Below are positions 32,798 to 37,655 of a DNA stretch of 64,000 nt, in pieces; within the stretch, counting starts at the first letter, position 1, and each line of letters opens with the position of its first letter. The notes beneath the pieces were generated by a model. That model saw only the letters and a list, made by a program, of their open reading frames with translations. It searched no databases and was not told where the DNA came from. The position numbers and the translations under genes were made by a program. Origin of the DNA: an uncultured Anaerolineae bacterium (GTDB lineage Bacteria > Chloroflexota > Anaerolineae > Promineifilales > Promineifilaceae); NCBI GenBank assembly GCA_937943625.1, contig CALEAD010000020.1:1-64000 (forward strand), written 5' to 3'.

Positions 32798-34453
32798 TTA
32801 CCGCCCTACCCCCACGTTGCCGCCAAACGCGGCCGACATTTCCTCATAGATGGCAGCAATGCTTGCCTCATCGCCACGATAGAAGTTGCCGTTGGCGCGG
32901 GTGACGAGGGTAGAGAGGGTGCGCTCGTCGGCGTCGCTGCCATAGGCAATGCCAAACACGGTGTCGCTGTTGGTCGTTACCAGGCGAATCAGCTCCTCGG
33001 TGAAGGCGTAGCGATAACTGCGTGTGTCCATGCCGTCAGAGAGAATGACCAGCGCGTTTGTGCTGTCTGGAGAGGCGGTGCGCGCCAGCAGAGAGGCGCC
33101 ATCGCCAATTGCATCGAAGAGAGTGGTGTCGCCAGAGGCCACCAGGTCTCGAATGACGCGGATGATCTTGTTGCGATTTGGCCCTACCTGCACGTGGTTG
33201 ACTACAAGTTGTGGCTCGGTGGCAAAGGCGATGATGGAGAGGTAATCCTCATCCCCCATTTGCTGCACGAATTGGATGGCAGCATCGCGCATATTTTCCA
33301 TTTTTGCGCCACGCATACTGCCAGAGGTATCGAGCAGCATGACCAGGTTGACGTCTTTGCGCGCCGAGACCCAGAGCGCCTGCGCGCCATAAATGGTGGG
33401 GACGCTGGGGCTGGCAAAGATTACTTCTGGCTGGCTGGGGTCTATGGCAAAACGGCCGTCTAGTTCCACACCCGCGCTTACTGGCCGCAGCCCCACGCTA
33501 ACGGCCGTTGCCTGCCCTTGCTGGCTGAGCAAAAAGTCGCGGAAAGCGGCTGCCCCTTCTTGGGCGGCGCTGCTGGCGTTACGGTTGATGCAGGCGGGGT
33601 GCGTGGCCATGAAGGTGCCCTCCAGCGGGTAGATGGGCGTAATTTCTCCTTTGCCGTAGTAAACGGCCGTGTTCTCATACATGATGCCGGCCGTCAGGTA
33701 GTCAATGCCGCGCTCGTACATTGTTGCCGCCAGTGCGTCTGTGCTACTGCTAAACCAGGCCACCCCTCCTTCAAACGCCCGCACCGAGGCCTGTACCAGC
33801 GGCATTTCAATCTCGTCTACCGTTACCGCTTCCCGCTTGTTGCGTGCCGAATGCACCACTGCCAGCAGCGTGCTAACCCCAGACGCGGAAAGGCCAGGGT
33901 GCGTGTGCCCCAGGCGGAAAGCATCTCCCAGCTCGCCGCCGCTGTAATAACTCCAGATCGCCGGGTCGGCGGCCAGACTGCTGATGTCTAGCCAGCCCAG
34001 GGAAAGGCCCGGCCAGCCCAGCGCCGCCGCTGCTGGCTGCCACATGCCAATCACCAGTGGGCTTTGCGCCACGCTGAGGCAATCCCCCTGGAAGGCGTCG
34101 TTGCCCTGGTTGGCCAGCACATCTACCCACACGGGCTCCTCTGGCAGCCAGAGAGCGGCAGTGGCGCCTTCGGCCATTTGCGTCACGGCCAGGCCAGATT
34201 CAATGTACTGTGCCATCACATAGATGGGGTCTCCAGCGCTGTTTTTGTTGCGGGTGTTGTTGAAGGCGGCAACGGCCGTTTCCAGCCAGGGCTTCAGGCT
34301 AGAATTTGCCACCACCCCCACCACCACGGCATTGCGGGGGATGCTTTCCGCGCCATTGTCAAACAGGCCACAAGAAAGGCTAATCAGCAAGAAAACCATT
34401 ATCAGCGCCCAAATGGCGCCGAACTTGTTTACTCTTACACGCAAATTTACCAT
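32798..34453 (-). CDS. Solute-binding-protein-like domain fused to VWA domain, probable lipoprotein
   Basis: The 551-residue protein has an N-terminal hydrophobic segment ending ISLSCGLF, a plausible lipobox. Residues about 40-350 resemble an extracellular solute-binding protein (VVVGVVANSSLKPWLETAVAAFN, SPLVIGMWQPAAAALG, ALGWPGLSLGWLDI, GTFMATHPACINRN and DFLLSQQGQ). Residues about 370-545 are a von Willebrand A domain with a complete MIDAS start (MLLDTSGSMRGAKMENMRDA), the Thr in GDTTLFDAIGDG and the Asp in VILSDGMDTRS. It should act outside the membrane in a metal-dependent protein contact. It lies 12 bp after the SBP/OmpA gene, so they form an operon and probably a complex. The function is unknown. 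Confidence 0.8.
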   Translation of the reverse strand: MVNLRVRVNKFGAIWALIMVFLLISLSCGLFDNGAESIPRNAVVVGVVANSSLKPWLETAVAAFNNTRNKNSAGDPIYVMAQYIESGLAVTQMAEGATAALWLPEEPVWVDVLANQGNDAFQGDCLSVAQSPLVIGMWQPAAAALGWPGLSLGWLDISSLAADPAIWSYYSGGELGDAFRLGHTHPGLSASGVSTLLAVVHSARNKREAVTVDEIEMPLVQASVRAFEGGVAWFSSSTDALAATMYERGIDYLTAGIMYENTAVYYGKGEITPIYPLEGTFMATHPACINRNASSAAQEGAAAFRDFLLSQQGQATAVSVGLRPVSAGVELDGRFAIDPSQPEVIFASPSVPTIYGAQALWVSARKDVNLVMLLDTSGSMRGAKMENMRDAAIQFVQQMGDEDYLSIIAFATEPQLVVNHVQVGPNRNKIIRVIRDLVASGDTTLFDAIGDGASLLARTASPDSTNALVILSDGMDTRSYRYAFTEELIRLVTTNSDTVFGIAYGSDADERTLSTLVTRANGNFYRGDEASIAAIYEEMSAAFGGNVGVGR

Positions 34454-34465
34454 GACAAATCCTGT

Positions 34466-36028
34466 TTACCGCCCAGATGTGACCAGCGTCAGCTCTACAT
34501 ACCGGTCACTGGCCTGCACATTCGGGTCAGTTGTGTTGCGGTGCGACTCCGGGGGCAACACGGCTTCTACGATGAAGCGCGCGCGGTCAATACCCTGCGA
34601 AACCAGATAATCTACCACCGACTGCGCGCGCCCCTGCGCCACTTCCAAAATTTCTGCTTCGGTATAGGGCGGGTTATTGGCCGGCCAGGCAGAAGAGCCT
34701 TTGATGCGCAGCAGCAGGCCCACGCTCTGCGAGAGGGTAGGAACCACGCAAGAATCTAAAATGCGCCGTGATTCTAGCGTTAGCTCGGTAGATTCTGGCA
34801 GGAAAGAGAAAGTGCGACAGGGCAACACTGCCAGGGTTGTTGCGGCATCTGGCTCTCCTGTGGCTACGCCGGTCAGATCGAGCTGTGGTGAAATGGAGAA
34901 GGTGTCGTTGACGGGATTGCCGAAGGGTTGCAGGCTGGCCTGCTCGCTGGCGCGCAGCACAAAACGCGGTTCCACCAGGCTGGTGATGTCATCGTTGGGC
35001 ACGGGCAGGTCAGAAGCGGCCCAGACACGCCGCGCAATTTGCAGACGGTTGATAATGGGGCGCGTATCGCGCATGACAAAGGCGTTGTCGCCCAGATCTG
35101 CCTGAGCAATGTTCTCTAGCCATCCACGCAGGTCGGCAACGGCCGTTTCCCGGTAGACGGCGCTCCAATCATTATTACCCCAGGCAGCAATTTGCGCCGC
35201 CGCCGTGTTAAAGTCTTCCACCTGCGCCTTCAGCGTGGCAAACCAGGCATTGTGGAAGTTCTGCACCAGCACCGGATTCTCGCTCAGGGACTGGCGCGAG
35301 GTTACAATCACATCTATGACAATGCGTAACTGTGCTGAACTGAGTAAGGGGGTGCCGCCGCTTTGCGCTGCCTCATAAATATCTGGGTCCCAGGCAGAGA
35401 CTGCATCTGCCTGCCCGCGATTAAACGCGGCCACGGCGTCAGCCACGCTATCCTGCGGAACCAGCGTCACGTCAGAGCGCGGACTGAGTTGGGCAATCGA
35501 GAGGGTATAGTAGACAAAGTATTCGCCCACGCTGCCCCGCGAGAAAGCAATGCGTTTGCCCTTCAGATCATTGATGGTGGCAATGTTGCGCCCCCATAGC
35601 TGGTCGGCCCCGGCGCTCTCATCCACAATGGCCGTAATCACGCCGGGGCTGGTCAGCGCCACCGAATCTAGCGTGGTTAGCAGGCAGTTCCATTGGCCAG
35701 AGTTGAGCAGCGCGGCGCGTTGCTCTTCGGCAATGGTGTACTTTTCATTCAGGTCAAAGGGGATGATGCCGAGATGGAAGCCATTTTCAATGTCTTTGCC
35801 GCTCATCTGCATTTGTTGCAGGGTAAAGTAACTACCAAAGGCATCGGCGGCACAAATGTAAGTGGGCTTGCCATCCTGGCGGTTATAGTTTGGTCCCCAG
35901 ACAGGTTCAGGCGAATCTAAACGGCTGCTGGGCGTGGTGTTGCTATCCGCGTTGTAGGCAAGGACGCCACAAACGGCGAGCATGGCAATGCCAATGATAG
36001 CAATGAAGATGATGCGTGTTCTGTCCAT
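34466..36028 (-). CDS. ABC-type solute-binding domain fused to OmpA-like C-terminal domain
   Basis: The 520-residue protein starts with a membrane anchor (IIFIAIIGIAMLAVCGVLAYN). Residues about 55-330 follow the NitT/TauT-type binding fold (WGRNIATINDLKGKRIAFSRGSVGEYFVYYTL, AVAAFNRGQADAVSAWDPDIYEAAQ). Residues about 400-515 are OmpA-like: FSFLPESTELTLESRRILD, LLLRIKGSSAWP, RAQSVVDYLVSQGIDRARFIVEAVLPPESHRNTTDPNVQASDRYVEL. OmpA domains normally bind peptidoglycan, so the protein would be anchored to the wall. No ABC permease or ATPase lies beside it, so a sensing or structural role is more likely than uptake. An AGGAG sits 7 nt before the ATG. It is the second gene of a three-gene operon. Confidence 0.82.
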   Translation of the reverse strand: MDRTRIIFIAIIGIAMLAVCGVLAYNADSNTTPSSRLDSPEPVWGPNYNRQDGKPTYICAADAFGSYFTLQQMQMSGKDIENGFHLGIIPFDLNEKYTIAEEQRAALLNSGQWNCLLTTLDSVALTSPGVITAIVDESAGADQLWGRNIATINDLKGKRIAFSRGSVGEYFVYYTLSIAQLSPRSDVTLVPQDSVADAVAAFNRGQADAVSAWDPDIYEAAQSGGTPLLSSAQLRIVIDVIVTSRQSLSENPVLVQNFHNAWFATLKAQVEDFNTAAAQIAAWGNNDWSAVYRETAVADLRGWLENIAQADLGDNAFVMRDTRPIINRLQIARRVWAASDLPVPNDDITSLVEPRFVLRASEQASLQPFGNPVNDTFSISPQLDLTGVATGEPDAATTLAVLPCRTFSFLPESTELTLESRRILDSCVVPTLSQSVGLLLRIKGSSAWPANNPPYTEAEILEVAQGRAQSVVDYLVSQGIDRARFIVEAVLPPESHRNTTDPNVQASDRYVELTLVTSGR

Positions 36029-36038
36029 GGTATGCTCC

Positions 36039-37478
36039 TTATACGTGATAGCCCAGGTTACGTAGCACGTCCCCAGGGGCCTGGCCGGGGAGAAGTTGAA
36101 ATTGGTAACGGCCGTTGTTCGTCCGGTCTACAATTAATTCATTCGCCTCTGGCAGCACGCAGTGCTTGCTGCCGCGCACTCCGCCCAACATCTCCTGGTA
36201 GGCGCCAATGCTAAAAAAGCCAATGTAGAGATCATCTGTTTCCACCGGCAGGTAAAGCGGCGTTTCGCTGCCTTTGGGCGGGTAGACGTCATCACTGTCA
36301 CAGGTAATGCCGCCAAGCTGCACCTGCTGAAACGGCTTATCCAGGTGGTTGAGCGGCAAGACGATAAAATGTTCACCCAAAGCCCAGCTATCGGGAAAAG
36401 AACTCATAATTGAGCCATCTATAATGTACCAGGGTTTGGCCGAGTGATTGTCTTTGGTCAGCACAATCTTGAACAGGTGCGCGCCATGTTCCGAGGTGGT
36501 ATACCGGCCGAATTCCCCCATGATGTCTGGCTCTGGCACGCCGTAGCGGGCGCATGTCTGCTGAAAAGCGGTCAGCAGCAGGCGCACAAAATGGTGATAG
36601 TCAAACTCGAAGTTCAGCGTCATCGGCGCAGGCATACCCCCACCAAAATTAAAGATGCTCAGCGTAGGATGGCGCTGGCGCAGGCGCGCATACAGCTCAA
36701 TGCCAGGGCGTAAATAAGAAAGAAAGGTCGCTTCGTCAACAAGCTGGCTGCCTACCATGTAATGATACATCTTCAGGCTCAGGTTAGGCGCAGCAGCGAC
36801 GTAGTCGGCTGCCTTCCACATTGCTTGCAAGTCCAGGCCAAAGCGGGAATTGGCTGCTTCCATTTCCGCTTCGGTGGTGTTGGGGCCATAGCTCTTTTGC
36901 CGCAGCCCCACGCTGAAGTGGTAACCCGATTGCAGCAGGGGCGGAATTTCGCTCAGGTCTTCAATGACGGGTATCACCTGCTCATGGTCGCGGCGCAGAC
37001 GAATGATGTTTTGGGCATAATGAGAGCCGGCAGGCTTGAAGCCGTTGCAGATGACCATGCGGTCTGGCGTAAGCAGACCAAGCTGGATCATGTGGCGGGC
37101 AATGTCCACGTCAATGGTGGAAGACATCTCGTGATGTGCACCCGCGCCCAGGGTGGTGCGGATGACCTCTTCGGCGGCATTGGCTTTGGAGGCGTAAGTG
37201 TAATGGAAACGGCCGTTGTAGCCAATTTCGGCGATCACTTCAGCAAAGACGCGCTGCATTTGCGCAATGCGGTAACGGATGATGGGCAGGTAGACAATTT
37301 CTAACGGACTGCGCAGCGCCTGCCCCAGCCCCTCCTCGCCCCCGCCATCAAGGAAAATTTGCGCCAGGTCCAGGTCTTCAAAGTGCAAACGGCCGTTGCG
37401 CACATTCAAGTAATCATTAAAGTAATAGCGATTGGGCACAGGGTCTTCACTCTCCCAGCCGATGATTGCTCGCGTCAT
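36039..37478 (-). CDS. Arginine/ornithine-type decarboxylase, alanine racemase fold
   Basis: The 479-residue protein is a fold-type III PLP decarboxylase. FHYTYASKANAAEEVIR carries the Schiff-base lysine, MVICNGFKPAGSHYAQN and FNFGGGMPAPMTLNFEFDYHHF bind phosphate, GEFGRYTTSEHGAH is the Glu-Gly-like loop and LGGITCDSDDVYP has the catalytic Cys. These fit biosynthetic arginine decarboxylase (SpeA), but that enzyme usually has 630-660 residues, so this is a short version, and ornithine or another basic amino acid may be the substrate. It is cytoplasmic. It leads the operon with the SBP/OmpA and SBP/VWA genes, 10 bp upstream of the former. GGAGG lies 7 nt before the ATG. Confidence 0.85.
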   Translation of the reverse strand: MTRAIIGWESEDPVPNRYYFNDYLNVRNGRLHFEDLDLAQIFLDGGGEEGLGQALRSPLEIVYLPIIRYRIAQMQRVFAEVIAEIGYNGRFHYTYASKANAAEEVIRTTLGAGAHHEMSSTIDVDIARHMIQLGLLTPDRMVICNGFKPAGSHYAQNIIRLRRDHEQVIPVIEDLSEIPPLLQSGYHFSVGLRQKSYGPNTTEAEMEAANSRFGLDLQAMWKAADYVAAAPNLSLKMYHYMVGSQLVDEATFLSYLRPGIELYARLRQRHPTLSIFNFGGGMPAPMTLNFEFDYHHFVRLLLTAFQQTCARYGVPEPDIMGEFGRYTTSEHGAHLFKIVLTKDNHSAKPWYIIDGSIMSSFPDSWALGEHFIVLPLNHLDKPFQQVQLGGITCDSDDVYPPKGSETPLYLPVETDDLYIGFFSIGAYQEMLGGVRGSKHCVLPEANELIVDRTNNGRYQFQLLPGQAPGDVLRNLGYHV

Positions 37479-37507
37479 GCTTTTGCCTCCACAAAGGTTT
37501 CACCAGC

Positions 37508-37513
37508 ATTATA
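37508..37513 (-). promoter_or_regulatory. -10 box of the decarboxylase operon
   Basis: TATAAT on the minus strand lies 29 bp before the ATG at 37478, a spacing that leaves room for a short leader with the GGAGG site. The -35 region is weak. The LexA box at 37561-37572 is about 50 bp upstream and could influence it. Confidence 0.45.
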
Positions 37514-37552
37514 CACAACTTACCTGGCAGAGAAACGCCAGCGGAAAAATTC

Positions 37553-37581
37553 TTGACATGGAACACCCGTTCTTGTATACT
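37553..37581 (+). promoter_or_regulatory. Consensus sigma-70 promoter of lexA
   Basis: TTGACA (37553-37558) and TATACT (37576-37581) are separated by exactly 17 bp. It is one of the best promoter matches in the window. The SOS box sits between the two hexamers. Confidence 0.85.
37561..37572 (+). promoter_or_regulatory. LexA operator (SOS box) in the lexA promoter
   Basis: GAACACCCGTTC is an exact GAAC-N4-GTTC match, the box type of Gram-positive bacteria and Chloroflexota. Its place between -35 and -10 means LexA bound here would block RNA polymerase, giving self-repression. Confidence 0.85.
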
Positions 37582-37655
37582 TTGCACAGAACAAATGAGC
37601 GATTTTGTCAGGTGCTGGCCATTTTTCTGTTGGGCACGCCTGACGGAGCAATCCT

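Follow-up and report, generated by a model that had tools for sequence, protein, structure and literature searches.

What might a decarboxylase and two solute-binding fusion proteins do together for a cell, when no transporter is encoded beside them? This question is raised by three adjacent minus-strand genes in a stretch of 64,000 nucleotides from an uncultured Anaerolineae bacterium (contig CALEAD010000020.1, positions 1 to 64,000; hereafter, the window). A preliminary description of this DNA had reported a PLP decarboxylase gene, followed at 10 and 12 bp by genes for two fusions of a solute-binding protein (SBP) domain—one with an OmpA domain, the other with a VWA domain—and the open reading frames were confirmed at the exact coordinates:

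36039..37478, minus strand: SpeA-like PLP fold-III decarboxylase, 479 aa, assigned by Pfam/NCBIfam profiles and motifs
36029..36038, minus strand: decarboxylase/SBP-OmpA gap, 10 bp, containing a Shine–Dalgarno-like AGGAG just before the second gene
34466..36028, minus strand: SBP-OmpA fusion, 520 aa, with N-terminal membrane anchor, TauA/SsuA-type SBP and OmpA-like C-terminal domain
35942..36028, minus strand: signal-anchor MDRTRIIFIAIIGIAML..., common to the second-cassette SBP in the window genome and the stand-alone SBP of the PspA operon
34994..35863, minus strand: TauA/SsuA/NMT1-type solute-binding domain, approximate boundaries
34469..34837, minus strand: OmpA-like domain, approximate boundaries, with GSSAWP in place of G-x-T-D and Arg467 kept
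34454..34465, minus strand: SBP-OmpA/SBP-VWA gap, 12 bp
32798..34453, minus strand: SBP-VWA fusion, 551 aa, probable lipoprotein
33464..34327, minus strand: SBP_bac_11/sulfate- and ModA-like solute-binding domain, approximate boundaries
32825..33358, minus strand: VWA domain, approximate boundaries
33314..33331, minus strand: MIDAS motif DTSGSM (D375–M380)

Two features of the surrounding DNA are recorded here for context. A lexA gene is divergent from the operon with 177 bp between them (window 37479-37655); LexA is not a recurrent neighbour in relatives. The palindrome AACGGCCGTT has 38 sites in the window (for example at 33500-33509, 34271-34280, 35138-35147, and 36107-36116), against an expectation of 0.1, and no other 10-mer is as frequent there. 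Further contigs of the window genome and some genera of its family are likewise rich in it; in 218 kb from other families it is lacking. It resembles the cyanobacterial HIP1 palindrome; no paper on AACGGCCGTT itself was found.

The best explanation for the three genes is that they make up a single operon, belonging to an envelope-maintenance module of Chloroflexota that is of the PspA (phage-shock) type. We infer the function of the gene set from its genomic context, and consider it fairly probable, taking the reading as a whole, that the set is the Chloroflexota variant of an envelope-stress module of the PspA type with a link to polyamines; each single step of this reading is less certain.

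The first gene encodes a PLP decarboxylase, as originally described: profile matches and catalytic motifs agree. The protein matches Orn_Arg_deC_N with 57 bits, and its best NCBIfam match is SpeA (PRK05354) with 168 bits, under the cut-off of 369; against TIGR01273 it scores 153 bits, which does not reach the cut-off of 624. SpeA enzymes are also its nearest solved relatives (3nzq, 3n2o, 3nzp). All 46 aligned sequences retain the PLP lysine (YASKAN) and the GSQ, GGG, GE-x-GR, and CDSDD motifs, so that the PLP lysine and the C-terminal CDSD catalytic motif of fold-III PLP basic amino acid decarboxylases are present throughout. An identity as LysA (DAP decarboxylase) was rejected, with 78 bits vs the 168 and 153 of the SpeA profiles. 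Judged by its sequence, the enzyme is likely an arginine decarboxylase. It is the single PF02784 protein found in the window genome—hence, no separate LysA was found there—and two ureohydrolases are encoded in the same genome.

For the second gene, profiles and an AlphaFold model bear out the fusion of a solute-binding with an OmpA domain, the latter being divergent. Pfam assigns NMT1 with 37 bits and OmpA with 23.3 bits, below Pfam's cut-off of 27.2, which is exceeded by the relatives L121, L123, and L129. Both fusions were modelled with AlphaFold (pLDDT 91 and 92) and their folds compared by Foldseek, whereby the predicted SBP-OmpA fold matches TauA (6ssy, TM 0.77). The architecture of a type-II SBP with a C-terminal OmpA domain is thus found in the window protein by Pfam, AlphaFold, and Foldseek. 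In known OmpA-like domains, diaminopimelate is bound at an Asp–Arg pair. Here, Arg467 is invariant (54/54 sequences), while the Asp position (A447) is occupied by Ala in 50, Gly in 3, and Phe in 1 of the 54; the next residue is Trp in 52 of them (GSSAWP). The corresponding letters of E. coli OmpA and Pal, which we take to be G-Y-T-D and G-H-A-D, align against G-S-S-A of the window domain. The Arg of an mDAP-type peptidoglycan-binding domain is hence present and its Asp gone. As the canonical Asp is missing in all 54 relatives, ordinary DAP-peptidoglycan binding is not supported, and the label "peptidoglycan-binding" that this domain had first been given should not be taken for granted. Ornithine has been reported in the peptidoglycan of Chloroflexus aurantiacus (Jurgens 1987, as cited in PMC2615216), which makes a changed wall ligand possible. 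The window genome encodes one other OmpA-domain protein (G000:C23:50000-65000, L047), in a cluster with sheath-like proteins that, judged by eye, has the look of a contractile tail or injection system.

The third protein likewise agrees with its first description as an SBP-VWA fusion with an intact MIDAS. Pfam assigns SBP_bac_11 with 53 bits and VWA with 62 bits, the AlphaFold model matches the folds of sulfate-binding protein and VWA, and the MIDAS ligands D375, S377, S379, T443, and D473 (D-x-S-x-S, T, D) are identical in 59/59 sequences. Cys28 is shared by the same 59, and the protein is probably a lipoprotein on sequence grounds. One rival reading takes the pair as purely an envelope scaffold, holding surface assemblies via MIDAS docking and wall attachment with solute sites that have lost binding. 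An intact MIDAS throughout, an OmpA-type fold, and the anchoring of both proteins would fit this; the SBP folds, however, are fully retained, the OmpA ligand site is changed, and no pilin or sortase genes occur among the neighbours examined, so that we regard a purely structural role as unlikely.

How far the gene set holds together beyond the window was followed in 62 named loci, not every one of which is testable for each neighbour. All 62 carry labels of Chloroflexota MAGs or uncultured bacteria, among them Anaerolineae, Ardenticatenaceae, Aggregatilineales, Thermoflexus, Thermomicrobiales, and Chloroflexaceae. SBP-VWA lies downstream of SBP-OmpA in 50 of 53 testable loci from many genera, which is more than chance. 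The decarboxylase lies upstream of SBP-OmpA in 41/56 loci, and most other neighbours of the gene set vary between genera. Among 98 relatives, SBP-OmpA is nearly confined to the family of the window genome (f1), where the complete copies show 69-81% identity. Within f1, SBP-OmpA and the decarboxylase are both present in 33 genomes, SBP-OmpA only in 1, the decarboxylase only in 3, and neither in 15—counts that ignore kinship. The genome survey that had been proposed as a check thus did not find the fusions mainly with other genes. As for the decarboxylase link itself, the claim stands in part: the objection that it is chance fails (41/56 loci; 33/34 SBP-OmpA genomes of f1), and the link is not universal. 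In genus g22, the SBP pair stays together, with the decarboxylase next to a radical-SAM gene at another locus; no decarboxylase occurs at the locus in Thermoflexus, Aggregatilineales, and some others. These cases mark the two fusions as the core and the decarboxylase as a frequent but separable partner.

It might therefore be asked whether the decarboxylase is simply a housekeeping polyamine enzyme that shares a promoter with the SBP pair and has no functional connection to it. As the sole PF02784 enzyme found in the genome, it probably does have a housekeeping role; moreover, the pair persists in g22 with the enzyme relocated, and three genomes (G021, G040, G088) carry the enzyme without the pair. 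On the contrary, there is the adjacency in 41/56 loci, the co-occurrence of decarboxylase and SBP-OmpA within the family, and the reach of this linkage into distant loci: in G091 (L049), from another family, a decarboxylase relative lies divergent near an SBP-OmpA relative of ~30% identity, and in L123 and L127 a decarboxylase relative lies upstream of SBP-OmpA. A coincidental partnership is hence doubtful, although it retains some weight.

Several further neighbours are confined to certain lineages. In g22, the decarboxylase at its other locus and the SBP pair both have radical-SAM/SPASM genes as neighbours (L050, L051, L054; L052, L078, L079, L116, L130). Seven distinct loci (L077, L080, L084, L086, L096, L102/L063, L128/L061) have a McrC-like gene (PF10117) immediately before the decarboxylase gene, with a 4-bp gap or an overlap in some of them, and often a gene for a sigma-70 factor or hybrid histidine kinase ahead of it. 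The McrC-like gene was considered as a part of the system; being absent from the window genome, it is regarded as a lineage extra. In one genus, a gene for an MscS-type mechanosensitive channel overlaps the decarboxylase start by 8 bp (L062/L076, L083). The further upstream genes in relatives belong to signalling and stress—hybrid histidine kinases, sigma-70, and MscS.

The connection to PspA comes from the relatives: there, the genes are linked to PspA and C1, an observation as direct as those on domains, gene order, and conservation. C1 is a membrane coiled-coil protein of ~280 aa without a named family, whose N-terminus has hydrophobic segments (hydropathy gives one or two where they were found), followed by a long helical stretch. 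The operon of deeper Anaerolineae lineages is extended by PspA/IM30 and C1: PspA follows the SBP pair in six loci (L090, L093, L097, L107, L109, L118), and 15 loci have C1 within the operon or next to it, where it immediately precedes SBP-OmpA, separates SBP-OmpA from the decarboxylase, or comes after PspA. Outside f1, a class-wide operon has the order PspA–SBP–SBP-VWA–C1, its SBP-VWA being ~30% identical to that of the window; of the 28 non-f1 genomes in which SBP-VWA is strongly matched (E below 1e-38), 21 have its gene near those of PspA and C1 on a single contig, and in the non-f1 loci examined a stand-alone SBP is encoded between PspA and SBP-VWA. In a maximum-likelihood tree, the SBP-VWAs of the cassette form one supported group (100/99) and those of the PspA operon another (100/100). 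The stand-alone SBP has its membrane anchor in common with SBP-OmpA (probability 93%), and the ectodomains of the stand-alone SBP and SBP-VWA are related. A direct homology of SBP-OmpA to this stand-alone SBP was rejected, since the alignment covers the N-terminal anchor only. Likewise, C1 was dismissed as a PspA/Snf7 relative, as hhalign gives no similarity to PspA, and actinobacterial and Thiodictyon neighbour proteins were dismissed as C1, as similarity was not detectable.

Within f1, SBP-OmpA and C1 are both present in 31 genomes, SBP-OmpA only in 3, C1 only in 6, and neither in 12, kinship again ignored. Most f1 genomes keep PspA-C1 as a locus separate from the cassette. G006 and G007 carry SBP-OmpA without C1, and G006 is also without PspA. 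The window operon itself holds neither PspA nor C1, so that a shared operon with PspA/IM30 is a property of the six relative loci and the class-wide SBP-VWA operon. The only PspA of the window genome lies at C66:5924-6577, among polysaccharide-type genes, and C1 was not found anywhere in this genome (~95% complete, 89 contigs); at this completeness, loss and an assembly gap look the same. The MDRTRIIF-type anchor occurs twice in the window genome, in SBP-OmpA and in the first protein of a pair on contig C16. This second cassette (G000:C16:137024-139701; L048:7025-9702) encodes a 370-aa MDRTRIIF-anchor protein, for which no Pfam match was found, and a distant SBP-VWA.

Solute-binding proteins suggest import, and the pair could capture a solute (oxyanion, sulfonate, or polyamine) for a permease encoded elsewhere, with the OmpA and VWA domains as tethers only. 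Both SBP domains retain complete type-II folds in the predicted models, proteins of the TauA/SsuA and sulfate/ModA classes usually work with ABC importers, and transport has been proposed for SBP-OmpA proteins in operons with ABC ATPase and permease (PMC11237479). Yet, profile searches of the window ORFs found neither an ABC permease nor an ABC ATPase in the operon—its description as permease-free holds—and none is among the annotated neighbours in the loci of relatives. Furthermore, an N-terminal membrane anchor and a VWA domain are unusual for feeders, and the linkage is instead to PspA and C1. Import thus appears improbable.

We favour the PspA-type module because the gene order is kept, PspA and C1 are linked to it in relatives, the anchor is shared, the genes co-occur, and the pattern resembles that of published PspA operons (PMC11237479); against it stand the absence of PspA and C1 from the window operon and their separate locus in most f1 genomes. 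In such a module, the two extracytoplasmic fusions would form a surface sensor or scaffold, with the SBPs acting as receptors rather than as feeders of an ABC importer. SBP-OmpA, held on the outer face by its N-terminal anchor, might read a small ligand and a cell-wall feature, and the lipid-anchored SBP-VWA might dock a protein partner through its MIDAS in a metal- and ligand-dependent manner. C1 could pass this state across the membrane to PspA, which would remodel or protect the membrane. The decarboxylase would supply or tune a polyamine—agmatine, then putrescine via the ureohydrolases encoded elsewhere. The original suggestion of a wall sensing or assembly system tied to polyamines thereby gains from PspA and C1 in the operons of relatives and from the published PspA–polyamine pattern; it finds no support for peptidoglycan binding, nor for a universal link to the decarboxylase.

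A bolder extension, which we think very unlikely to be correct, draws on the lost diaminopimelate Asp and the near-invariant adjacent Trp (GSSAWP). In this view, what is read at the surface would be the amine product itself or an ornithine-type wall: peptidoglycan that is amine-decorated or of the ornithine type would be recognised by the OmpA-like domain, and the SBP pair would report the state of the wall via C1 to PspA. If true, this would amount to a signalling circuit from wall state to membrane repair with its own ligand-making enzyme.

PspA systems are widespread, and their sensing of the outside is poorly known beyond proteobacteria. For the sensing end in Chloroflexota, the set is a conserved candidate: its surface proteins are both built on an SBP, the one carrying a docking domain that depends on metal and the other a wall-binding domain that is altered, and gene order connects them to PspA through C1. 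The polyamine enzyme extends a pattern that other PspA operons had already suggested, and over 60 loci of the family are at hand for predictions of ligand, partner, and stress.

Which known systems does this set resemble? The enzyme shares the PLP lysine and CDSD motif with SpeA, its best family match; SpeA, however, has ~620-670 aa, whereas the window decarboxylase has 479 aa, a sub-cut-off score, and a CDSDDVYPP motif. The TelA/tellurite-resistance system, considered as a possible home of such fusions, was dropped, as no TelA gene was seen among the neighbours and no supporting paper was found. The SBP + VWA architecture is named in RefSeq/PGAP as "substrate-binding and VWA domain-containing protein" (e.g., WP_332880827.1 from Streptomyces, ~26% identity). 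There, the gene is followed by one for a hypothetical protein and has no SBP-OmpA or decarboxylase beside it; C1 is not detectable among the Streptomyces or Miltoncostaea SBP-VWA neighbours. Negativicutes bear polyaminated peptidoglycan with an OmpM/Mep45 SLH tether (PMC10628300), a wall amine read by an envelope protein and comparable by analogy only: that tether is an SLH domain with an outer-membrane porin rather than an OmpA domain or SBP.

The set also resembles the PspA operons surveyed by Ravi et al. 2024 (PMC11237479), some of which encode PBPB-OmpA proteins—likewise an SBP fused to OmpA—with an AAA+ ATPase, ABC ATPase, and permease (e.g., OGG56892.1). Others, in which polyamine genes and surface lipoproteins recur, carry spermidine-synthase-like and glutathionylspermidine-synthetase-like genes, with variants bearing AdoMet decarboxylase. 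The authors proposed a monitoring of polyamines by PspA systems and a role of surface lipoproteins in coupling stress outside the cell to membrane dynamics; the main text makes no mention of VWA. With SBP-OmpA beside PspA published and SBP-VWA named in RefSeq, the earlier statement that no such system has been described was too strong. The window operon lacks the ABC ATPase and permease of the PBPB-OmpA operons, and the Chloroflexota set has SBP-VWA, C1, and a SpeA-like decarboxylase in place of their AAA+/ABC ATPase/permease genes. What is new here is the combination of known themes with SBP-VWA, C1, and the SpeA-like enzyme.
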